The translations under genes and the position numbers were made by a program. Source: Actinomycetota bacterium (GTDB taxonomy: Bacteria; Actinomycetota; Acidimicrobiia; Acidimicrobiales; AC-14). Taken from it: 44,669 nt of DNA. How positions within the stretch are numbered: position 1 is the first letter of the stretch; the number at the start of each line of letters is the position of its first letter. Below are positions 1 to 9,362 of the stretch, piece by piece. The notes beneath the pieces are model-generated. The model did no database searches and had not been told where the DNA came from. It saw only the letters and a program-made list of their open reading frames with translations. The DNA lies in the NCBI GenBank assembly GCA_040754375.1, contig JBFMCT010000029.1:1-44669 (forward strand). The letters are read 5' to 3'.

Positions 1-490
1 AGACCAGGTAGGGGGCGTCGAGCTCGCCCCGCTCGGCCATGAACAGGTTGTGGGTCCACTCCGCGCCGCACTCGACGGACACGACCGTGTGGATGAGCTC
101 GACCCTGGGCAGGCCGGGGATGATGCCGGCCAGCAGGTGCTCGAGCCGGGGGTGGGTGGCCCCGGTGGCCGCCACCGAGCACCCGTCGCACGAGCCGCCC
201 ACCATCCAGATCAGGTAGATCTTCTCCAGCGGGCCCAGGCGGACCTTGGACGTGTCGGGCTCTACCGCACGCGAACGCACCCCGATGGGGGCCATGGGGT
301 CGAGCGGGTTCTGGCGCCAGTCGAGGTAGCCCCCGCCGGCGGGCATGATGGAGCTGCCCGTGGCCGACCCGGCCGACCCGGCTATGTCGAGCCCAGCCGC
401 CTCGCCTCCGCTAACCTTACCCCGAGTGTCCTTAGGAAGACGCCGAGTGGTCGACTGCCCAGAACCCTTGCCCGCACTTCCGGTCGCCAT
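1..490 (-). CDS. [NiFe]-hydrogenase small subunit, N-terminal part (runs off window)
   Basis: The leftward frame is open from ATG 490 to the window edge, giving 163 codons of the N-terminus. About 90 residues of Gly/Ser-rich and polar extension precede the motif LIWMVGGSCDGCS. Its Cys101 and Cys104 are the CxxC pair that in this family begins ligation of the [4Fe-4S] cluster nearest the NiFe site. The stretches IIPGLPRVELIHTVVSVECG and NLFMAERGELDAPYLV also look like hydrogenase small subunits. I see no twin-arginine export signal, so a cytoplasmic or peripheral enzyme is likelier. A G-run sits about 10 bases before the ATG. The gene diverges from the regulator/hyp cluster, whose maturation proteins would serve the missing large-subunit partner. 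The subgroup cannot be assigned from this fragment. Confidence 0.85.
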   Translation of the reverse strand, partial: MATGSAGKGSGQSTTRRLPKDTRGKVSGGEAAGLDIAGSAGSATGSSIMPAGGGYLDWRQNPLDPMAPIGVRSRAVEPDTSKVRLGPLEKIYLIWMVGGSCDGCSVAATGATHPRLEHLLAGIIPGLPRVELIHTVVSVECGAEWTHNLFMAERGELDAPYLV

Positions 491-525
491 CTTGGTCAGA
501 CCCCCCCTTTTGGGTCGAAACTAGA

Positions 526-543
526 GGTAGACTACACCTATCT
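526..543 (+). promoter_or_regulatory. Element shared by both regulator modules, copy 1
   Basis: GGTAGA-N5-CCTATCT lies in the divergent region between the hydrogenase small subunit and the first winged-helix gene. A near-identical GGTAGA-N5-CCTGTCT stands before the paralogous gene at 2335. This copy also contains the small palindrome GTAG-A-CTAC (527-535). It could be a promoter core or an operator for the PadR or winged-helix proteins; its role is inferred only from its position and duplication. Confidence 0.4.
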
Positions 544-604
544 GGCCCGCCCGTCAGGTAGCAGTGTAGCGCCGGGTGGGCAAATCCCGAGGGGAGGTTC
601 GCTG

Positions 605-1012
605 GTGAGCGAGACGCTGGACGCACCGCACTGCGGCGCTCTGAAGTCCATGTTCTGGCGGAGCGAGATCCTCCAGGTCATGTACTGGCTCCGGGGCGAG
701 GGCTTCGGCGAGGAGGTCGACGCCGGCCTCATCGAGCGCTTCCTGGGCGTCGATGCCGAAGTAGGTATCGACTACCTCGACCAGCTCGTCGAAGAGGGCC
801 TCATCGACCGGATCGGCGATCTTTACACCCTGTCCGAGCTCGGCAAGCGCGAAGCTGGGTTGGAGTTCGCGATCGCTTTCGACGACCTGACCAACCAGGC
901 TCACGGAGAATGCGGGCCCGACTGCCCGCACTGCTTCCCCCCTGAGGGAGTCGACAGCGACTGCACCGAGGGTTGTCCAGCGTTCGAGCTCTCCCAGGAG
1001 GCCAGCCGATGA
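605..1012 (+). CDS. Winged-helix-like protein with Cys-rich tail (module copy 1)
   Basis: This 135-residue protein starts at GTG 605, seven bases after GGGGAGG (591-597); the frame is open further upstream but would overlap the divergent hydrogenase gene. Residues about 13-95 resemble a small winged helix (WRSEIL, MYWLRGEGFGE, a DQLVEEGLI helix, then a DLYTLSELG wing). The tail has His100, Cys103, Cys107, Cys110, Cys120 and Cys124, a spacing that could bind a metal or Fe-S cluster. It overlaps the PadR gene by ATGA, implying translational coupling. A paralogue at 2335 has the same layout and the same partner. I do not recognise a named family. A redox- or metal-responsive regulator of the hydrogenase genes is my inference from position. 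Confidence 0.75.
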   Translation: MSETLDAPHCGALKSMFWRSEILQVMYWLRGEGFGEEVDAGLIERFLGVDAEVGIDYLDQLVEEGLIDRIGDLYTLSELGKREAGLEFAIAFDDLTNQAHGECGPDCPHCFPPEGVDSDCTEGCPAFELSQEASR

Positions 1013-1389
1013 AACTCAGCAACGACGAGGCCCAGGGTGGTCTGCCCCGCAACTACCTACGGGCCAGCCTGTTGCTGCTGATCGCCGAGACGCCGGCCCA
1101 CGGCTACGACCTGCTCGAGCAGATCGGCCACCTCGGCCTGCGCAACGTCGACCCGGGCGGGCTCTACAGGGCCCTGCGGGTGATGGAGAAGGACGGGCTG
1201 GTCGAGTCGTGGTGGGAGCACTCGTCGGCCGGGCCGGCGCGCCGTAGCTACCGCCTCACCGAGGACGGCATCGACTGGCTTCACGCCTGGGCCGGCGCCC
1301 TGCGCGAGGGCCGGCGTTACCTGACCACCTACCTCGACCGCTACGACCGCATCGTCGACACAGTGCCGGTCGAGCAGTCCCTGTCATAG
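1009..1389 (+). CDS. PadR-family transcriptional regulator (module copy 1)
   Basis: The 126-residue product starts at ATG 1009, overlapping the upstream stop as ATGA, with CAGGAGG just before. It has the PadR winged-helix signature: LPRNYLRASLLLLIAE, HGYDLLEQI, then DPGGLYRALRVMEKDGLVES and the wing sequence RRSYRLTEDG. PadR proteins bind DNA as dimers and usually repress nearby genes. The C-terminal dimerisation helix is short, as in subfamily-2 PadR proteins. It is most similar within the window to the PadR at 2736. Given its place facing the hydrogenase gene, it probably controls this locus, perhaps through the shared element at 526-543. Confidence 0.88.
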   Translation: MKLSNDEAQGGLPRNYLRASLLLLIAETPAHGYDLLEQIGHLGLRNVDPGGLYRALRVMEKDGLVESWWEHSSAGPARRSYRLTEDGIDWLHAWAGALREGRRYLTTYLDRYDRIVDTVPVEQSLS

Positions 1390-1444
1390 CGACCACGCCC
1401 CGCGGGCGGGAACAATCCGCCCCGGCGCGTACGCTGGTGAACAC

Positions 1445-2215
1445 ATGAGCTCTCTCCGAATCGCAGTGGCGGGCAAAGGCGGTGCCGGCAAGACCACGTT
1501 CTCGGCCACCCTGTCGAGGCTGCTGGCCCGCCAGGGCCGCGACGTGATCGTGATCGACGGCGACAGCAACCCCAACGTGGCCGTCGCCCTGGGGGTCGAC
1601 AGAGAGCTGGCCGAGTCCCAGCAGCCCCTGCCCATAACCTTGGTCTCGCGCAGGATGGGGGGCCCCGCCCTCAAGGACCCGATCGACAAGGTGCTGGCCG
1701 ATCACTCGATCCCCGCTCCCGACCAGGTGCGGGTGCTGATGATGTGCCTGCCCAAGCACGCCGACGAGGGCTGCCTGTGCACGTCCCACGCCACCGTGGC
1801 CGGGCTGATGAACGACATCGCCGACCGGGAGGACTCGGTGACCGTGCTCGACCTCGAGGCCTCGCCCGAGCACCTGAGCCGGGGCACCACCCGCAACGTC
1901 GACGCCCTGTTCCTGATCGTCGAGCCTTATTACCGGTCCTACGAGACAGCCAAGCGCATGGCTGCCCTGGCCGCCGAGCTTCCCATCCGCCGGGTGGCCG
2001 TGGTGGCCAACAAGCTGCGCAACGCCCGCGACGCCGAGGCCATCCGGGAGTACTGCGAGATGGTCGGGCTCAACCTCGACGGCGAGCTACCGTGGAGCGA
2101 GGCCGCCATCAACGCCGACAAGGAGGGGGTCCCGGTGCTCGACTACGAGCCCAGCGACCCGTTCATCTCGGCCGTGGCCAAGGTCGCCGACCGGGTTACC
2201 GCCCTGAGCGACTGA
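1445..2215 (+). CDS. CooC-type nickel-associated P-loop ATPase
   Basis: The 256-residue protein starts at ATG 1445 and belongs to the MinD/CooC group of deviant-Walker ATPases: GKGGAGKTT at residues 10-18, then VIVIDGDSNPN (Walker A' aspartate region) and VTVLDLEASPEH. Cys110-Leu-Cys112 (EGCLCTSH) matches the CxC through which CooC dimers bind a metal. CooC proteins use ATP to load nickel into carbon monoxide dehydrogenase. No CODH gene is visible here; the neighbours are [NiFe]-hydrogenase and hyp genes, with hypA and hypB absent from the window. A role in hydrogenase nickel loading is therefore an attractive inference, not shown. It lies between two copies of a regulator module. Confidence 0.85.
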   Translation: MSSLRIAVAGKGGAGKTTFSATLSRLLARQGRDVIVIDGDSNPNVAVALGVDRELAESQQPLPITLVSRRMGGPALKDPIDKVLADHSIPAPDQVRVLMMCLPKHADEGCLCTSHATVAGLMNDIADREDSVTVLDLEASPEHLSRGTTRNVDALFLIVEPYYRSYETAKRMAALAAELPIRRVAVVANKLRNARDAEAIREYCEMVGLNLDGELPWSEAAINADKEGVPVLDYEPSDPFISAVAKVADRVTALSD

Positions 2216-2294
2216 TCGGCGGATAGCCCGACGGCGGCCCCAGGCCAGGTGGCGGTCGGCGAAGTCGCGGGAAAGTCATGCCGGGGACCCCTCC

Positions 2295-2312
2295 GGTAGA
2301 TGTATCCTGTCT
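2295..2312 (+). promoter_or_regulatory. Element shared by both regulator modules, copy 2
   Basis: GGTAGA-N5-CCTGTCT sits 22 bases before ATG 2335. It matches the copy at 526-543 at all but one of its 13 conserved positions. The surrounding intergenic sequences otherwise do not align, so the element looks selectively kept. Its short distance to the start codon suggests a promoter or an autoregulatory operator. Confidence 0.4.
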
Positions 2313-2334
2313 CTATCCACCGGCCACCTTGCGA

Positions 2335-2739
2335 ATGAGCACTTACTCACCCAAGTCCGAGGGCCTGCGGGCCCTCTACTGGCGAAGCGAGATCCTGCGG
2401 CTCATGTACTGGCTGCGGGGCGAGGGCTTCGGTGACCTGGTCGACGCCCCGATGCTGCGGCGTTACCTGGGCCTGGACGCCAAGGTGGGGCTCGGTTACC
2501 TCGAGAACCTGGTCGAGGACGGTCTGGTGGTGAGAGACGGCGATTGGTTCGCCCTGTCCGAGCAGGGGCTGGTCGAGGGCGAGGAGGAGTACCTCTGCGC
2601 CTTCAGCGACCTGCTCAAGCCCGTCCACGGCCAGTGCAGCCCGGAGTGCTGGTGCCAGATGTCCGACGAGGAGGCCCAGGCGTGCTCCTCCCAGAAAGAA
2701 CGGCCGACCCCCACAGAGAGGAAGAGCCGCAACCCATGA
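2335..2739 (+). CDS. Winged-helix-like protein with Cys-rich tail (module copy 2)
   Basis: This 134-residue paralogue of the protein at 605 shares WRSEIL, MYWLRGEGFG, LENLVEDGL and a closing HGQCSPECWC motif. ATG 2335 aligns with the start of the other copy; the frame extends to 2278 but the extra residues have no counterpart. The tail carries His98, Cys101, Cys105, Cys107 and Cys117, so the exact spacing differs from copy 1 (CxxxCxxC becomes CxxxCxC). It overlaps the next PadR gene as ATGA, as in copy 1. A metal- or redox-sensing transcription factor is plausible; no named family is recognised. It heads the run leading into hypC-hypF. Confidence 0.75.
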   Translation: MSTYSPKSEGLRALYWRSEILRLMYWLRGEGFGDLVDAPMLRRYLGLDAKVGLGYLENLVEDGLVVRDGDWFALSEQGLVEGEEEYLCAFSDLLKPVHGQCSPECWCQMSDEEAQACSSQKERPTPTERKSRNP

Positions 2740-3107
2740 GCCCCGCAACCAGCCGGGACACCAACGGTGCCCTGCCCCGCCACTACCTCAAGCCCTGCCT
2801 GCTGCTGCTGCTGGCCGAGGGCCCGTCCCACGGCTACGAGCTGCTCGAGCACGTCCGCAACATGGGGATCAAGGGCGCCGAACCCGGCGGTCTCTACCGC
2901 TACCTACGGTCGATGGAGAAGGAGGAGCTGGTCAGCTCGTGGTGGGAGCCTTCCCAGGCTGGCCCGGCCCGGCGCACCTACGTGCTCACCGACGAAGGGG
3001 CCGCTGCCCTGGAGGTGTCGGTCGGCTCCCTGCGGGACGTTCGCGAGATCCTGGTCAGCCTGCTCGACCGCTACGACGAGCTGCCCGCCAAGTCGAGTGC
3101 TCACTAA
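2736..3107 (+). CDS. PadR-family transcriptional regulator (module copy 2)
   Basis: The 123-residue product starts at ATG 2736 inside the upstream stop (ATGA). The PadR fold is clear: LPRHYLKPCLLLLLAEGPSH, GYELLEHVRNMG, EPGGLYRYLRSMEKEELVSS, and the wing RRTYVLTDEG. It aligns along its length with the PadR at 1009, including the tail LVSLLDRYDE against YLTTYLDRYD, so the whole two-gene module has been duplicated. hypC begins 69 bases downstream in the same direction. It is likely to act on this locus; ligand and target are unknown. Confidence 0.88.
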   Translation: MSPATSRDTNGALPRHYLKPCLLLLLAEGPSHGYELLEHVRNMGIKGAEPGGLYRYLRSMEKEELVSSWWEPSQAGPARRTYVLTDEGAAALEVSVGSLRDVREILVSLLDRYDELPAKSSAH

Positions 3108-3176
3108 CCCCGCCGGGGTGCGAGAATGAGTTGAAAGCCAGCGGCGGCCCCGGTCCCGAACGAATGAGGTGCGCGT

Positions 3177-3569
3177 ATGTGTCTCGGTATCCCCGGAAAG
3201 CTCGTCGAGATCGTTGACCTCGCCGAGCACCGTGCGATCGCAGACGTCGACGGTGTCAGGCGCGAGATCAACATCCACCTCGTCGAGGGTGAAGCCGGCG
3301 GCATCAAGATCGGAGACTGGGTCCTGATCCACGTCGGGTTCGCGATGTCCCGTATCGACGAGGAGGAGGCGGCCCGCACCCTGGCCTTCATCAAGGACCT
3401 CGGGAGCCTCTACGACGACGAGCTGGCCCAGTTCGCGTCCAGCGGCACCGACCCAACCGAGTTCCATGCCGCCGGCAAGGCCGCCCCGGGGGCTTCCGAA
3501 CAGGTGGCACCCGGCGCAGGGGCCGCACAGGTGGCACCCGGCGCAGGCGCCGCACAGGTGGCATCGTGA
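3177..3569 (+). CDS. hypC: Hydrogenase maturation chaperone HypC, with a repeat tail
   Basis: The N-terminus MCLGIPGKL with Cys2 is the HypC hallmark: HypC binds HypD and carries the Fe(CN)2CO unit to the hydrogenase large subunit. The beta-barrel portion (VDGVRREINIHLV, IGDWVLIHVGFAMSRID, then EEAARTL) ends near residue 90. At 130 residues the protein is longer than the usual 75-90 because of an Ala/Pro/Gly tail made of two and a third copies of QVAPGAGAA, encoded by 27-bp repeats. ATG 3177 is fixed by the essential Cys2. The stop overlaps the GTG of hypD by four bases (GTGA), so the two are translationally coupled. Confidence 0.96.
   Translation: MCLGIPGKLVEIVDLAEHRAIADVDGVRREINIHLVEGEAGGIKIGDWVLIHVGFAMSRIDEEEAARTLAFIKDLGSLYDDELAQFASSGTDPTEFHAAGKAAPGASEQVAPGAGAAQVAPGAGAAQVAS
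3501..3563 (+). repeat. 27-bp tandem repeat in the hypC tail
   Basis: Units lie at 3501-3527 and 3528-3554, with a 9-bp partial unit at 3555-3563. The two full units differ at one base. They encode QVAPGAGAA and keep the reading frame. Confidence 0.9.
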
Positions 3570-4708
3570 GGTTCGTCGACGAGTACCGCGACCCGGTCGC
3601 GGCGCGGGCGTGCGTGGCCGAGATCGACCGGGTGGCCGGTTCCATCGCCGAGGCCAAGGGCCATCACCTGAAGTTCATGGAGGTGTGCGGTGGCCACACC
3701 CACACCATCTACAAGCACGGCATCGAGAACGTGCTGCCCCCCTCGGTCGAGCTCGTCCACGGGCCCGGGTGCCCGGTGTGCGTCATCCCCATGGGCCGGG
3801 TCGACGACGCCATCGCCGTGGCCAAGACCCCGGGCACGATCTTCACGTCGTTCGGCGACATGATGAGGGTGCCGGGCGGTTCCGAGAACCTGCTCGAGGC
3901 CAAGGCCCAGGGCGCCGACGTGCGCATGGTCTACTCCCCCCTCGACGCCCTGCGCATCGCCATGGCCAACCCCGACCGCGAGGTCGTGTTCTTCGCCGTC
4001 GGCTTCGAGACCACGGCCCCGTCCACGGCCGTGACCCTGCTCAAGGCCAAGGAGAAGGGCGTGCGCAACTTCTCGGTCTTCTGCAACCACGTCACGATCG
4101 TGCCGCCCCTCAAGGCCATCTTGGAGTCGCCCGACCTGCGCCTCGACGGCTTCCTGGGCCCAGGCCACGTCTCCACCGTGATCGGCAACCACCCCTACCG
4201 GTTCGTGCCCGGGGTCTACGGCAAGCCGCTGGTCACCGCCGGGTTCGAGCCCCTCGACATCCTCCAGGCCATCGTCATGCTGTGCCGCCAGATCGACGAG
4301 GGCCGGTGCGAGGTCGAGAACCAGTACACCCGGGCCGTCGTCGATGCCGGCAACCCCAAGGCCCTCGGGGTCATCCGCGAGGTCTTCGAGCTGCGCCCCC
4401 ACTTCGAGTGGCGGGGCCTGGGCTTCATCTCCCAGTCGGCCCTCAAGCTGCGTGAGAGCTACGCCGCCTTCGACGCCGAGCTGAAGTTCGAGGTGCCGGG
4501 CGTGCGGGTGGCCGACCCCAAGGCGTGCCAGTGCGGCGAGGTCCTCAAGGGCGTCATCAAGCCGTGGGAGTGCAAGGTGTTCGGCACGGCCTGCACCCCT
4601 GAGACCCCCATCGGCACCTGCATGGTCTCCTCCGAGGGCGCGTGCGCCGCTTATTACAACTACGGCCGCTTCACCAAGCAGGCGACGATCCCCGTCAAGG
4701 TCGGTTAG
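3566..4708 (+). CDS. hypD: Hydrogenase maturation protein HypD
   Basis: HypD is the Fe-S scaffold on which, with HypC, the Fe(CN)2CO group is assembled using cyanide from HypE/HypF. The 380-residue length is normal. Visible family motifs are CGGHTHT (Cys41), GPGCPVC (Cys69 and Cys72), SFGDMMRVPG and GFETTAP. The C-terminal [4Fe-4S] region has cysteines in CQCGEVLKG, WECKVFG, TACTPE and GTCMVSSEGAC. The GTG start overlaps the hypC stop (GTGA), consistent with co-translation of two proteins that form a complex. hypE begins 6 bases after the stop. Confidence 0.97.
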   Translation: MRFVDEYRDPVAARACVAEIDRVAGSIAEAKGHHLKFMEVCGGHTHTIYKHGIENVLPPSVELVHGPGCPVCVIPMGRVDDAIAVAKTPGTIFTSFGDMMRVPGGSENLLEAKAQGADVRMVYSPLDALRIAMANPDREVVFFAVGFETTAPSTAVTLLKAKEKGVRNFSVFCNHVTIVPPLKAILESPDLRLDGFLGPGHVSTVIGNHPYRFVPGVYGKPLVTAGFEPLDILQAIVMLCRQIDEGRCEVENQYTRAVVDAGNPKALGVIREVFELRPHFEWRGLGFISQSALKLRESYAAFDAELKFEVPGVRVADPKACQCGEVLKGVIKPWECKVFGTACTPETPIGTCMVSSEGACAAYYNYGRFTKQATIPVKVG

Positions 4709-4714
4709 CCCCCG

Positions 4715-5878
4715 ATGGCCGACGGGGGGGACGGCTCGGGGGACGCTGACGGCACGGGCCACGACAGGGTGGCTCCGGAAGACGGGGTGGCTCCGGAAGA
4801 CGGGGTGGCTCCGGAAGACATAGTCCTGGAGCGCATCGAGGCCTTCCGGCGGCGGCGTCCCAAGCTGCGCGACGACTTCATCAACTCGGCCCACGGGGCC
4901 GGGGGCAAGGCGTCGGCCGCCCTCATCGACGCCGTGTTCCTGGAGGCGTTCCGCAACCCCACGCTGGAGACGATGGCCGACGGGGCCGTGCTCACCCTGC
5001 CCTCGGGCGAGCGCCTGGCCTTCTCCACCGACTCCTACGTGGTCAAGCCGGCCCGGTTCCCGGGGGGCTCCATCGGCCACCTGGCGGTCCACGGCACGGT
5101 AAACGACCTGTCGATGATGGGAGCCCGGCCCCAGTGGCTGTCGGCCGGGTTCATCCTCGAAGACGGCTTCTCCATAGAGGAGCTGCGCGACATCGTGGCC
5201 GACATGCGCGAGGCGGCCGTGGCCGCAGGCGTCGAGATCGTGACCGGGGACACCAAGGTGGTCAACAAGGGGGCGGGCGACGGGGTGTACATCAACACCG
5301 CGGGCGTCGGCCTGATCCCCGAGGGCGTACGCCTCGACCCGTCGCTGGTCCAGCCCGGGGACAAGGTCCTGGTGTCGGGCAAGATCGGCGACCACGGGGT
5401 GGCCGTTCTCATCGCCCGTGGCGACCTGGCCCTGGAGGCCGACATCCCCTCGGACACCGCTCCCCTCAACGGCCTGGTCGAGACCCTGCTGGCGGCTGCG
5501 CCCAACACCCGGTTCCTGCGCGACCCGACCCGGGGGGGCGTGGCCACCGTCTGCAACGAGCTGGCCCGGGCCGCCGAGGTGTCGGTCGTGCTCCAGGAGT
5601 CGGCCATCCCCGTGCGCAACATCGTCAACGGGGCGTGCGAGATCCTGGGCATCGACCCCCTCTACGTGGCCAACGAAGGCCGCCTGGTGGCCGTCGTGCC
5701 GCCCGGGGAGGCCGACGCCGCGCTGGCCGCCATGCGCGCCCACCCGGTGGGGGCCGACGCCGCGGTCATCGGCGAGATCCGCGACGACCCGCCCGGCATC
5801 GTGATCCTCAACACCCACTTCGGGGGCAACCGCATCGTGGACATGCTGGTGGGCGACCCCCTGCCCCGCATCTGCTGA
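4715..5878 (+). CDS. hypE: Hydrogenase maturation protein HypE (thiocarbamoyl dehydratase)
   Basis: HypE takes a carbamoyl group from HypF on its C-terminal cysteine and dehydrates it with ATP to a thiocyanate, the source of the CN ligands. The protein ends in PRIC, with Cys387 as the last residue, the defining feature. Other PurM/HypE-like motifs are HGAGGKAS, FSTDSYVVKPARFPGG, GTVNDLSMMGARP and DPTRGGVATVCNELA. The product is 387 residues, longer than the usual 330-350 because of an acidic 36-residue N-terminal extension carrying three VAPED units. The start at 4715 is the first ATG after hypD; a later start would trim this extension. The stop overlaps the presumed CTG start of hypF. Confidence 0.96.
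   Translation: MADGGDGSGDADGTGHDRVAPEDGVAPEDGVAPEDIVLERIEAFRRRRPKLRDDFINSAHGAGGKASAALIDAVFLEAFRNPTLETMADGAVLTLPSGERLAFSTDSYVVKPARFPGGSIGHLAVHGTVNDLSMMGARPQWLSAGFILEDGFSIEELRDIVADMREAAVAAGVEIVTGDTKVVNKGAGDGVYINTAGVGLIPEGVRLDPSLVQPGDKVLVSGKIGDHGVAVLIARGDLALEADIPSDTAPLNGLVETLLAAAPNTRFLRDPTRGGVATVCNELARAAEVSVVLQESAIPVRNIVNGACEILGIDPLYVANEGRLVAVVPPGEADAALAAMRAHPVGADAAVIGEIRDDPPGIVILNTHFGGNRIVDMLVGDPLPRIC
4769..4820 (+). repeat. 18-bp tandem repeat in the hypE N-terminal extension
   Basis: Two exact units (4769-4786, 4787-4804) and a 16-bp third unit (4805-4820) encode VAPEDG three times. The GTGGC-start of each unit resembles that of the hypC-tail repeat. Confidence 0.85.
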
Positions 5879-8163
5879 CGTCCCGCCGGTTCCGCGTCAC
5901 CGGCACCGTCCAAGGCGTCGGGTTCCGCCCCTTCGTCTACCGCCTGGCCATCGAGCTCGGCCTTGTCGGCGAGGTCTCCAACGACAGCCTGGGCGTACTG
6001 ATCGAGGCCTCCGGGCCGCCCGAGGCCCTCGACGCGCTGGCCCGGCGGATCGTGGCCGAGGCTCCCCCGCTGGCCCTCGTCGAGTCACTGGAAGCCACTG
6101 ACGTCGCCGGTGTGGGCACCGGGCCCGGGTTCCGCATCGTCGACAGCCGGTCCGGGGGGGCACCCGCGGTGGCCGTGCCCGCCGACGTGGCGACGTGCGA
6201 CGACTGCCTGGCCGAGATGGCCGACCCGGCCGACCGCCGCTACCGCTACCCGTTCGTCAACTGCACGAACTGCGGGCCCCGCTACACGATCATCGAGTCC
6301 ATCCCCTACGACCGGGCGGCGACCACCATGGCGCCCTTCGCCATGTGCGCCGACTGCCGCCGGGAGTACGAGGACCCGGCCGACCGGCGGTTCCACGCCG
6401 AACCGGTGGCCTGCCCGGCGTGCGGGCCCCACCTCTCCTACGGCGACCTCCACGGCGACCAGGCCCTGGCCGGGGCGGCCGCCGACCTGGTCGCGGGCCG
6501 GGTGCTGGCCGTGAAGGGACTGGGCGGCTACCACCTGGCGTGCGACGCCACCAGCGAGCGGGCCGTGGCCGACCTGCGCACGCGCAAGGCCCGCGACGAC
6601 AAGCCCTTCGCCGTCATGGTCCCCGACCTGGAGGCCGCCCGCGCCCTGTGCCAGCTATCGCCGGCAGCCGCGCAAACCTTGGCTTCGGTGAGGCGCCCGA
6701 TCGTGCTCGCCCCCCGGCGCCCGGGTGCGGCCGTGGCCGCCGGGGTGGCACCCGGCCTACCCGAGCTGGGCCTGATGCTGCCCTACACGCCCCTGCACCA
6801 CCTGCTGCTGGCCCAGGTGGGGCGGCCCCTGGTCATGACCAGCGGCAACCTGTCCGACGAGCCCATCGCCCACGAGGATCCCGACGCTCGCGAGCGCCTC
6901 GGTCCGCTGGTCGACGGGGCCCTCACCCACGACCGGGCCATCCACATCCGCTGCGACGACTCGGTCGTACGAGACGTGCCCATGGGTCCCGAGGGCCCCG
7001 CTGGTGAGCCCGAGGGCTTCGTGCAGATGGTCCGGCGCTCGAGGGGCTACGCCCCCGAGCCCGTACGCCTGCGCCAGGCCACGTCCCGCCACGTCCTGGC
7101 CGTGGGGGCGGAGCTGAAGAACACGGTAGCCGTGGCCAAGGGCGACAACGTGGTGGCCAGCCATCACATCGGCGACCTCGAGCACCTGGCCGCCTACCGG
7201 TCGTTCCTCCAGGCCGTCGGCCACCTGTGCCACCTGACGGGCGTGACCCCCGAGGTCGTGGCCCACGACCTGCACCCCGAATACCTCTCGACCAAGTTCG
7301 CCACCGACCTCGACGACGTGGCCCTGCTGGGGGTGCAGCACCACCACGCCCACATCGCCGCCTGCCTGGCCGAGCACGGCCGTGCCCCGGGGGAGCCCGT
7401 GCTCGGGGTGGCCTTCGACGGGCTGGGCATGGGCACCGACGGCACCATCTGGGGCGGCGAGCTCCTGGTGGCCGACCTGCGGGGTTTCCAGCGGGTGGGC
7501 CACCTCGAGCCGGTGCCCCTGGTGAGCGGCAACCTGGCGGTGCGCGAGCCGTGGCGCATGGCCACCGTGTGGGCCGACCACGCCCTGGGTCGCGACGAGG
7601 CCGAGCGGTTCGGCCGGGCCGTCGACGACCGCTGGCGGGCCGTCCTGGCCCTGGCCGAGAAACCCGACGCCTTGCTCACGACCAGCGCGGGCCGGCTGTT
7701 CGACGCGGTGGCCGCCCTGCTGGGCCTCCACCCCCGGGTGACCTACGAGGCCCAGGCGGCCATCGCCCTCGAAGCGCTGGCCACGACGGTGCCCGTGGCC
7801 GAGGCACCGGCGGGTTGGCCGGTCGAGGTGCACGACGGCGACCTGGTGCGCATCGACCCCTCCCCCCTGCTGGCCCGGGTCGTGGCCGAGCGCGACCGGG
7901 GGACGGCGCTCCCGCTCATCGCCGCCGGCTTCCACCGGGCCCTGGGGGAAGCGGTGGTGGCCGCCTGTACCCGGCTGAGCAGGGCCCACGGGCTGGGCAC
8001 CGTCGCCCTGTCGGGCGGCGTGTTCCAGAACGCCCGCCTGACCGCCGTCGTGGCCGGCGGGCTCACCGAAGCCGGGCTCACCCCCCTCGTCCATCGCCGC
8101 CTGCCCCCCAACGACGGCGGCGTCAGCGTGGGCCAGGCCGCCATCGCCGCCGCCTCGACCTGA
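5875..8163 (+). CDS. hypF: Carbamoyltransferase HypF, probable CTG start
   Basis: HypF turns carbamoyl phosphate and ATP into carbamoyl-AMP and passes the carbamoyl group to HypE. Domains in order: acylphosphatase (FRVTGTVQGVGFRPF, residues about 6-90); two CxxC zinc fingers from Cys108 (CDDCLAEM, NCTNCGP, CADCRREY, CPACGP); a YrdC-like domain; and a Kae1-like domain with HHHAHIAACLAEHG (about residue 489) and LSGGVFQNARL (about 712). Total length 762 residues is typical. In frame there is no ATG, GTG or TTG near the expected N-terminus. CTG 5875, overlapping the hypE stop as CTGA, gives MTSRRFRVTGTVQG, which fits the family start exactly. ACG 5878 or CTG 5872 are the alternatives. Confidence 0.94.
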   Translation: MTSRRFRVTGTVQGVGFRPFVYRLAIELGLVGEVSNDSLGVLIEASGPPEALDALARRIVAEAPPLALVESLEATDVAGVGTGPGFRIVDSRSGGAPAVAVPADVATCDDCLAEMADPADRRYRYPFVNCTNCGPRYTIIESIPYDRAATTMAPFAMCADCRREYEDPADRRFHAEPVACPACGPHLSYGDLHGDQALAGAAADLVAGRVLAVKGLGGYHLACDATSERAVADLRTRKARDDKPFAVMVPDLEAARALCQLSPAAAQTLASVRRPIVLAPRRPGAAVAAGVAPGLPELGLMLPYTPLHHLLLAQVGRPLVMTSGNLSDEPIAHEDPDARERLGPLVDGALTHDRAIHIRCDDSVVRDVPMGPEGPAGEPEGFVQMVRRSRGYAPEPVRLRQATSRHVLAVGAELKNTVAVAKGDNVVASHHIGDLEHLAAYRSFLQAVGHLCHLTGVTPEVVAHDLHPEYLSTKFATDLDDVALLGVQHHHAHIAACLAEHGRAPGEPVLGVAFDGLGMGTDGTIWGGELLVADLRGFQRVGHLEPVPLVSGNLAVREPWRMATVWADHALGRDEAERFGRAVDDRWRAVLALAEKPDALLTTSAGRLFDAVAALLGLHPRVTYEAQAAIALEALATTVPVAEAPAGWPVEVHDGDLVRIDPSPLLARVVAERDRGTALPLIAAGFHRALGEAVVAACTRLSRAHGLGTVALSGGVFQNARLTAVVAGGLTEAGLTPLVHRRLPPNDGGVSVGQAAIAAAST

Positions 8164-8183: not shown

Positions 8184-8747
8184 TCAGGGCCGGCCGTGGA
8201 CCTCGGTGACCGCTCCGTCGGCGCCGGTCACCCGCAGGACGGGGCCGGCGGGGGTGGCGGCCGAGGCGAACGTCAAGCCCAGCACCTCGCAGCGCAGTGG
8301 CCCGGTGACCAGGGAGGCGCCCTCGAGGACGAACATCTCGGCAACGCACGTGGCCGGGTCGACGACCAGGACCTCATCCACGCCCATCTCGGCGTAGAAG
8401 CCGAACTTGTCGTAGGTCTCGTCGCCAGGTGAGCGGACCTCGACCACCAGCTCGGCCCGGCCCTCGATCCCCCGCTCGGTGGCGTGCTCGCGCCGGTAGG
8501 CGGCCAAGTCGGGGATGCGGTGGTCGGGGCGGCCCACCCCGGGCCGGTAGAGCTCGGTCCCGTGGGAGAAAGTCAGGCCCCGGCCCTCGGCCGCCGGGCC
8601 CAGCACTGCCGCCAGCCTGGTCGTGAACCGCTGGTGGGGCCCGCTCGGTGCCGGCACCATATGGAGCACCCCGTCCCACATCTCGTCCCAGCGGTCGGCG
8701 CCTGTGCGCCGCCGCTCTTCTAGGAGGTCAGGTGGGACCATGACCAT
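8184..8747 (-). CDS. Uma2-family (DUF820) putative endonuclease
   Basis: This leftward gene gives 187 residues from ATG 8747, about nine bases after AGGTG; GTG 8759 or ATG 8741 are alternatives. Family traits are DEMWDGVLHMVPAPSGPHQ near the N-terminus, then IPDLAAYR, AELVVEVRSPGDETYDK and GVDEVLVVDP, the PD-(D/E)xK-like core. Uma2 proteins are abundant in some cyanobacteria and actinobacteria and their function is unproven; most are called restriction-endonuclease-like. It converges on hypF with 20 bases between stops and is not obviously linked to the hydrogenase genes. Confidence 0.8.
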   Translation of the reverse strand: MVMVPPDLLEERRRTGADRWDEMWDGVLHMVPAPSGPHQRFTTRLAAVLGPAAEGRGLTFSHGTELYRPGVGRPDHRIPDLAAYRREHATERGIEGRAELVVEVRSPGDETYDKFGFYAEMGVDEVLVVDPATCVAEMFVLEGASLVTGPLRCEVLGLTFASAATPAGPVLRVTGADGAVTEVHGRP

Positions 8748-8837
8748 CACTGCTCTCACCTACATGAGAATACACGAAAGCAGACGCACCGGGCGGGCCA
8801 ATGGCACCGCCCGGTGCGCCGGAACCGCAGGCCGGGG

Positions 8838-9362
8838 CTAGCCCCAGCCCCCGCCGCCGGCCGACTCGGTGCCGACGAGGCGTACCACCAGCTTGACCTC
8901 GGGCTTGATCTGCAGGTTGATCACCGGGACCTTGAACGGCTGGACCCCGAAGTCGCGGATGTCGAAGGTGTGCTCGGCCTCGACCTGCAGGCGGCCGCCG
9001 TTGAGCGACGCCTGGACCTCCTCGACGAAGTCCTGGCTCACTCCGTGGAAGGTGAAGGCCCCGGCTACCTTGAAGCTGTCGGGGCCGCCCTCCACGCTGC
9101 GCAGCTCGTAGCGCACGTTGGGGTACTTCTTGGCGTCGATCTGCTTGCGCAGCGCCATGTCCTCGAGCTTCTTGCCCGTGCCGAGTTGGTCGACGTCGGC
9201 CTCGATCCAGGCGGATGCGCCAGGGCCCGGAGCCAGCTTGCCGTCGACCACGTCGACATTGGCCTCACCGCGGAGATTTCTGATCTCCCCGTGGATCGGA
9301 TGCACGCTCGAATCGGCATTCAGCTCCACGACGCTTTCGGACGTCCACGTGAACTTGGCCAC
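8838..9362 (-). CDS. YceI-like family protein
   Basis: The 174-residue product starts at GTG 9362, with AGGGGGTGA upstream. The YceI lipocalin-like fold binds isoprenoid or other lipids. Family features are the opening FTWTSESVVELNADSSVHPIHGEI, the middle LRKQIDAKKYPNVRYELRSVEG and AGAFTFHGVSQDFVEEV, each written here as conserved blocks rather than a single stretch. No signal peptide is visible, so a cytoplasmic location is likely. The C-terminus LVVRLVGTESAGGGGWG is Gly-rich. It stands alone between an endonuclease-like gene and a cluster of small unknown genes. Confidence 0.75.
   Translation of the reverse strand: MAKFTWTSESVVELNADSSVHPIHGEIRNLRGEANVDVVDGKLAPGPGASAWIEADVDQLGTGKKLEDMALRKQIDAKKYPNVRYELRSVEGGPDSFKVAGAFTFHGVSQDFVEEVQASLNGGRLQVEAEHTFDIRDFGVQPFKVPVINLQIKPEVKLVVRLVGTESAGGGGWG

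Follow-up and report, generated by a model that had tools for sequence, protein, structure and literature searches.

High-affinity [NiFe]-hydrogenases play a role in the soil sink of atmospheric H2, and CooC, an ATPase of nickel insertion, is a nickel-binding dimer. To our knowledge, there is no account of how cells switch on hydrogenases of groups 1l and 1m. Gene clusters of group 1m have been described as adjacent subunit genes accompanied by a peptidase, an Fe-S protein, CooC, a TPR protein, a 'BirA homolog', a DUF1059 gene and two small membrane proteins, and group 1l as having small membrane proteins between the subunits; the main-text section on group 1m names no PadR protein, Cys-tailed protein, operator, selenocysteine or absence of HypAB (PMC9561532). 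Here we analyse a stretch of 44,669 nucleotides (the window) from an Actinomycetota bacterium of the class Acidimicrobiia (GCA_040754375.1, contig JBFMCT010000029.1). In it, two gene pairs, each encoding a winged-helix protein with a Cys-rich tail (WH1, WH2) and a PadR-family regulator (PadR1, PadR2), enclose a gene for a CooC-type ATPase and run divergently from the gene of a hydrogenase small subunit. A first interpretation made without database searches (the sequence-only reading) had described this order, an ATGA overlap at both WH/PadR junctions, and the tail motifs HGECGPDCPHC (WH1) and HGQCSPECWC (WH2), and the coordinates bear all of this out. Its view of the arrangement as undescribed needs qualifying for the cluster type, which is in print as group 1m with CooC.

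We suggest, with a probability of roughly 0.55, that the WH-PadR module is a dedicated regulatory unit of a group 1m-type [NiFe]-hydrogenase, in which PadR reads an operator and WH is a metal- or redox-responsive partner. In Pfam and NCBIfam, WH1 and WH2 reached the cut-off of no family; judged from its relatives, WH is a real family nevertheless. With a 26-row model, 154 relatives were identified in named genomes, and the best 80 loci of these 154, retrieved by WH sequence alone, hold 84 WH genes. A PadR gene lies at most 400 nt downstream of 80 of them, the WH stop codon falling inside ATGA, GTGA or TTGA in 39 of the 80 pairs. Hydrogenase small or large subunit genes occur in the retrieved stretch for 72/84 WH genes, and CooC lies within 2.5 kb of 72/84. 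Among the 12 WH genes lacking a subunit gene, eight have hyp, HycI, NifU or TPR genes from the cluster as neighbours, and four loci (L087, L108, L147, L159) show none of the hydrogenase-cluster genes; the pair is thus not mostly found away from hydrogenase genes. In a second set of 30 loci, PadR follows 22 of 31 WH genes, and subunit genes are in the stretch for 25. The tail cysteines are conserved, C-x3-C-x1/2-C being kept in all 84 WH genes (C-x3-C-x1-C in 82, C-x3-C-x2-C in 2). In a 43-row alignment (the frameshifted WH of L082 being excluded from the WH alignments) three Cys are invariant, and a fourth is kept in 90% or more.

The linkage recurs when genomes are sampled by taxonomy. A two-row WH model was run on 395 genomes of the class and 396 of the phylum. 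Clear members (E below 1e-30) were present in 12/395 class genomes, all with a subunit gene no more than about 8 kb away on that contig, and matches at E 1e-6 or better in 19/396 phylum genomes, the window's genome included. Weak matches in seven class genomes (E from 0.0017 to 0.009), lying within frames 482-732 aa long, were discarded as chance. Named strains that carry the pair belong to Geodermatophilus, Blastococcus, Modestobacter and Pseudonocardia, and include Amycolatopsis marina. WH as a mobile or phage gene was also considered and rejected, a WH1 query giving no match in plasmids or viral contigs.

The second line of evidence is a shared palindrome. A dyad search in 73 non-redundant WH-upstream regions gave TGTA-N3-TACA as the most enriched dyad (16 of 73 regions, 0.07 expected), and a matrix fitted on the same regions yielded the palindrome nTAGGTGTAnnnTACACCTAn with a two-humped score distribution: 24 regions score at least 19 bits and 25 at least 12 bits, a level reached by under 0.1% of shuffled regions. 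A refined matrix (25 bases, 71 training sites, threshold 13 bits) was applied to 81 loci comprising 1.3 Mb and found 117 sites in 70 loci, compared with one site for the reversed matrix and an average of 0.8 for column-shuffled matrices. Of these sites, 61 lie in the gap between the small-subunit and WH genes, 26 have no annotated gene facing away, and one falls inside an annotated domain; the remainder precede WH, the small subunit, hypF, hypC, hypD, CooC or PadR. Ten group 1h loci gave a best score of 8.1 bits. In the window, operator 1 lies in the 114-bp small-subunit/WH1 gap, 30 bp from the start codon of the small subunit and 63 bp from that of WH1, and is the sole match with at most one mismatch in the whole genome; operator 2 lies 18 bp ahead of the WH2 start codon. 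The conservation of the palindrome makes a role of the module in hydrogenase control much more likely. The sequence-only reading had proposed a two-component-like sensing pair controlling the hydrogenase. Palindrome and linkage support the controlling role; 'two-component-like' is too loose, because no kinase or receiver was seen.

Based on these data, we hypothesize the following mechanism. PadR would bind, as a dimer, the 19-bp palindrome TAGGTGTAnnnTACACCTA in the small-subunit/WH gap and, because the palindrome sits there, would control two divergent operons, that of the hydrogenase and its own, WH-PadR-CooC-hyp. WH, co-translated with PadR, would be an acidic winged-helix partner with no DNA-reading role of its own, and its C-x3-C-x1/2-C...C cluster (in some members with a His-rich tail) would sense nickel or an Fe-S/redox state and alter the grip of PadR on DNA. 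The window's genome would hold two old versions of this unit in series, one before the hydrogenase and WH1 and one before WH2-PadR2-hypCDEF. The sequences themselves show the pairing, the conserved cysteines, the link to the hydrogenase and the operator with its positions; PadR as binder, its contact with WH, the ligand, the sensing step and the sign of control are what we infer here. The assignment of roles is consistent with fold and charge. Both PadR1 and PadR2 pass the PF03551 cut-off as members of the PadR family, and the predicted structure of PadR1 has the PadR fold, a winged helix with a long C-terminal helix (predicted local distance difference test score, pLDDT, 89; Foldseek E 4e-7). 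Helix 49-61 of PadR, taken as the recognition helix, contains a conserved Arg and is positive in 34/45 proteins, whereas WH is acidic throughout: its isoelectric point averages 4.7 (range 4.1 to 5.3), 0/43 members are net positive, and over these 43 rows both the wing and helix 49-61 are negative. Hence, PadR is likely the DNA reader and WH its partner.

WH might instead be a maturation factor that holds nickel or hands it to the CooC-type ATPase as a stand-in for HypA, with PadR as the sole regulator, which we consider unlikely. The acidity of WH would suit such a function, and so would its tails: at least three His follow the Cys cluster in 37/86 WH proteins (up to 13; the longest tails, with 9 to 13 His, are those of L095, L100, L104, L111, L125 and L126), compared with 0/86 PadR-type proteins having as many in their last 20 residues, and these His suggest nickel as the metal. 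However, the other 49 WH proteins lack a His-rich tail, WH1 and WH2 among them. Group 1l-type operons (L072-L078), in which a Cys-tailed WH stands between a HycI-type peptidase gene and a NifU gene, with neither PadR nor operator, also speak for maturation; the predicted winged-helix fold and the tight pairing with a DNA-binding type of protein speak against it. The genomic distribution of HypA and HypB cuts both ways as well. In this comparison of draft genomes with a small group 1h sample, HypB is above cut-off in 3/27 WH-carrying genomes (the window's genome, G225, G740) and in 3/5 WH-less genomes with a group 1h large subunit, the other two lacking it, and HypA in 6/27 versus 5/5. The window's genome, on the other hand, has both.

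Genomes poor in HypA and HypB still hold hydrogenase loci with hyp genes, and since both proteins are mostly below cut-off in WH-carrying genomes, the CooC-type ATPase may replace HypAB, not strictly so in the window's genome. The window protein is a CbiA/MinD-class P-loop nucleoside triphosphatase with a CxC motif. Its relatives in the loci comprise 125 whole rows and 26 genes split by exactly one stop, five of the 26 being repeat retrievals from one genome. Each of the 26 stops is a TGA at a Cys position of the metal motif; in 22 genes this is the first Cys of CxC, and the other four belong to a paralogue (loci: L062, L067, L069, L070, L072, L074, L076, L080, L082, L096, L150, L151, L152, L154, L155, L157, L160-L165 and others). 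The window's genome has such a gene too, a second CooC located past the hydrogenase operon genes of contig C5 (L184), with an in-frame TGA at 7415-7417 (GAG*TCGSHAAV). At what we take to be the position of a bacterial selenocysteine insertion sequence, a stem of 6 bp or longer occurs in 18/19 distinct TGA genes versus 12/90 Cys genes. Over the 48 bases in question, TGA genes have folding z-scores only a little below those of Cys genes (means -0.89, n=22, and -0.26, n=60, respectively). In genomes with a TGA-bearing CooC, tRNA-Sec and SelB are each above cut-off in 9/11; tRNA-Sec is not discriminating, as it is also above cut-off in 13/16 other genomes. Taken together, the TGA-bearing CooC proteins are probably selenoproteins with selenocysteine at the metal motif, a form that appears in no title or abstract opening among the literature matches listed. 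This and the HypAB gap point to a different route of nickel insertion. As a tentative extension, which we hold with less confidence than the regulatory role itself, actinobacterial hydrogenases of groups 1m and 1l might have a nickel system of their own, in which CooC, often with selenocysteine in CxC, would replace HypA and HypB, and WH would inform PadR of the nickel or Fe-S supply, PadR reading one palindrome common to the regions ahead of the hydrogenase and maturation operons.

That WH is itself the DNA-binding regulator (MarR- or DtxR-like), with PadR being accessory or regulating something else, appears improbable. Its predicted structure (WH2; pLDDT 87.5, the tail less certain) is a winged helix whose closest structural neighbours are indeed chains of MarR, MntR, DtxR and IdeR (Z 10 to 11, root-mean-square deviation 1.4 to 5.6 A). 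However, this level of Z is reached against many winged-helix families simultaneously, a Foldseek search with WH returned no chain at E 0.001 or better, and comparison with PDB sequences gave nothing convincing (best an alphaRep at E 0.0033 and a metal-dependent regulator at 0.015), so that we limit the label to 'winged helix'. The acidic wing and helix 49-61, and the lack of an operator where WH occurs without PadR, also argue against WH as a binder.

Equally improbable is a palindrome read by an outside regulator, such as a TrmB-type protein, with the place of the pair due to co-inheritance with the cluster: in the window's genome, like sites do stand before a TrmB-type gene and BNR-repeat genes, but the strict pattern tracks genomes with the pair, and sites recur ahead of both pairs in three two-pair genomes and across several families. 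With up to one mismatch, the palindrome is found in 7/395 class genomes, namely 5 of the 12 with WH, each time in the hydrogenase locus, and 2 of the 383 without; the backwards control pattern also occurs in seven of the 395, none with WH and all of 1.8 Mb or less. With up to three mismatches, six genomes have 11, 8, 14, 5, 5 and 5 sites (control 2, 1, 13, 1, 0 and 3), the pattern exceeding the control in the window's genome (11 to 2) and in G225 (8 to 1).

Several observations weigh against a dedicated WH-PadR regulatory unit. At this looser level, pattern and control are near equal in G314 (14 to 13), and looser sites in the window's genome, one of 27.5 bits, precede or lie at the start of the TrmB-type and BNR-repeat genes; this may indicate a wider regulon, or a second regulator that reads a like sequence. 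The refined-matrix counts are partly circular, because the matrix was trained on the loci counted, some of them near-copies, and even so 11/81 loci have no site. The second set, which shares some genomes with the first, offers a less circular test: sites scoring at least 12 bits, not all of them strong, are present in 19/21 loci with PadR versus 0/9 without. This speaks for a link between PadR and the operator, but the link is confounded, since the PadR-less loci largely belong to another clade and hydrogenase arrangement, several of them on short contigs. The PadR proteins are slightly negative overall (mean net charge -2.0), and WH1 forms a long branch in its tree and lacks the CWC form. The main tension in the model comes from the group 1l-type operons: because they carry WH alone, without PadR or operator, WH may also act independently. 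The Chloroflexi loci L156 and L158 carry this operon-type WH plus a WH-PadR pair.

The sequence-only reading had called the module duplicated. Two copies are present, with identities of 52% between WH1 and WH2 (101 aa) and 53% between PadR1 and PadR2 (112 aa). The trees, obtained by a short search with support from the Shimodaira-Hasegawa-like approximate likelihood ratio test (SH-aLRT) only, lead us to reject a recent tandem duplication. PadR1 is nearest to the first copies of L133 and L136 (SH-aLRT 97), and PadR2 to their second copies (98) inside a different, 31-row clade; WH2 likewise groups with the second copies (88). By these trees, the two pairs are two long-separate lineages of one module. 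L133 (from G225) and L136 also have two pairs; their second pair immediately precedes hypC but lies 3 to 6 kb downstream of CooC. In all three two-pair genomes the first operator has the common GACTACACCTAT and the second ATGTAT.

The window's hydrogenase is like published group 1m in its gene content. Profile matches to a peptidase, an Fe-S protein, CooC and a TPR protein occur in the window and contig C5. L055 and other complete relatives have adjacent subunit genes; contig ends truncate both of these genes in the window's genome. Base 1 of the window is one such end and lies inside the small-subunit gene. As this leaves 163 residues, the small subunit gave no match in Pfam and a weak one in NCBIfam (E 1.1e-4); it does match a profile seeded from complete relatives. 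Judged from gene order, the rest of the operon is very probably the start of contig C5, where a 5'-truncated large subunit, a peptidase, NifU, a second peptidase, a TPR protein and, farther on, the other CooC follow one another (profile matches). A group 1l label was dropped, since the subunits are adjacent in complete relatives, in contrast to L072, where four small frames between the subunits resemble the membrane proteins described for group 1l; loci such as L072 would fit that group.

In the large-subunit tree, a group 1h clade (C. necator, Streptomyces, contig C21 of the window's genome and seven WH-less genomes) is set apart from the WH clades with support 100, and the partial large subunit on contig C5 falls outside it (support 100). 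Among WH-less genomes of the class, 109 have a PF00374 match, and loci were taken from nine, chosen for a profile like that of WH genomes; one (L194) stayed below the 300-bit limit and outside the tree. Of the other eight, seven group with 1h, and G288, a genome 75% complete, joins the group 1m type. Two additional large subunits in WH loci (L065, L066) form a long branch of their own. Extra large subunits of the same type occur on contig C1 of the window's genome (L185) and in G225 (L198, L199), with no small subunit in the retrieved stretch; these genes fall in the family having two regulator pairs.

The features are listed in Table 1. A Uma2-family nuclease-like gene (8184-8759) and a YceI-domain gene (8838-9362), both on the minus strand, adjoin the hyp genes. 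A search for sigma-70 promoters and terminators in 400-3300 found none and is uninformative at the guanine-cytosine content of this region.

Table 1. Features of the hydrogenase regulatory locus, in window coordinates unless a locus is named
Feature	Position	Strand	Remarks
[NiFe]-hydrogenase small subunit, 5' part, 163 aa	2..490	-	truncated by contig end
Operator 1, CTAGAGGTAGACTACACCTAT	521..541	.	candidate site
WH1, acidic winged-helix protein, Cys-rich tail	605..1012	+	GTG start, GAGGGGAGG directly 5'
WH1 tail, HGECGPDCPHC...DCTEGC	902..976	+	C-x3-C-x2-C form and two extra Cys
PadR1, PadR-family regulator	1009..1389	+	PF03551 66.8 bits (cut-off 27); ATGA overlap with WH1
CooC-type P-loop ATPase	1445..2215	+	GKGGAGKT; CxC motif EGCLCTSHATV; Cys form
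Operator 2, GTAGATGTATCCTGTCTCTAT	2296..2316	.	3 mismatches to pattern, 19.4 bits; weaker candidate
WH2, acidic winged-helix protein, canonical C-x3-C-W-C...C tail	2335..2739	+
WH2 tail, HGQCSPECWCQMSDEEAQAC	2626..2685	+
PadR2, PadR-family regulator	2736..3107	+	PF03551 64.9 bits (cut-off 27); ATGA overlap with WH2
hypC	3177..3569	+	PF01455 90.5 bits
hypD	3566..4708	+	profile match
hypE	4715..5878	+	profile match
hypF	5866..8163	+	profile match starts 5866; provisional gene start
Operator-like palindromes at TrmB-type/BNR-repeat loci	L200 4422, L201 4163, L202 3987, L205 3013

With two regulator genes, a predicted operator and named carrier strains, the control of a group 1m-type hydrogenase becomes testable. 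In comparison with known systems, group 1h has related large subunits (C. necator pHG1, Streptomyces), 44 to 45% identical to that of the relative L055, and WH, PadR, CooC and operator were not found in the group 1h loci examined from these organisms. The PadR proteins share sequence and fold with their family (LmrR, Rv3488) and differ in that the gene upstream almost always encodes a partner of another winged-helix type, and in having a candidate hydrogenase operator. WH, as modelled, resembles the metal and redox regulators of the MarR, MntR and DtxR types in its winged-helix core; it is acidic, has no sequence match at family level, and adds a C-terminal Cys cluster, in some members with a His tail. 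The window's CooC-type protein has the deviant P-loop GKGGxGKT and the CxC motif of the CooC nickel-insertion ATPases, but is tied to a hydrogenase, and in several relatives TGA takes the place of the first Cys codon of CxC. A further comparison is with group 1m, with which the locus shares its occurrence in Actinobacteria, adjacent subunits in complete relatives, the peptidase, the NifU-type Fe-S protein, the CooC-type ATPase and the TPR protein, and the 'BirA homolog' of the published clusters (PMC9561532) might be the WH protein.

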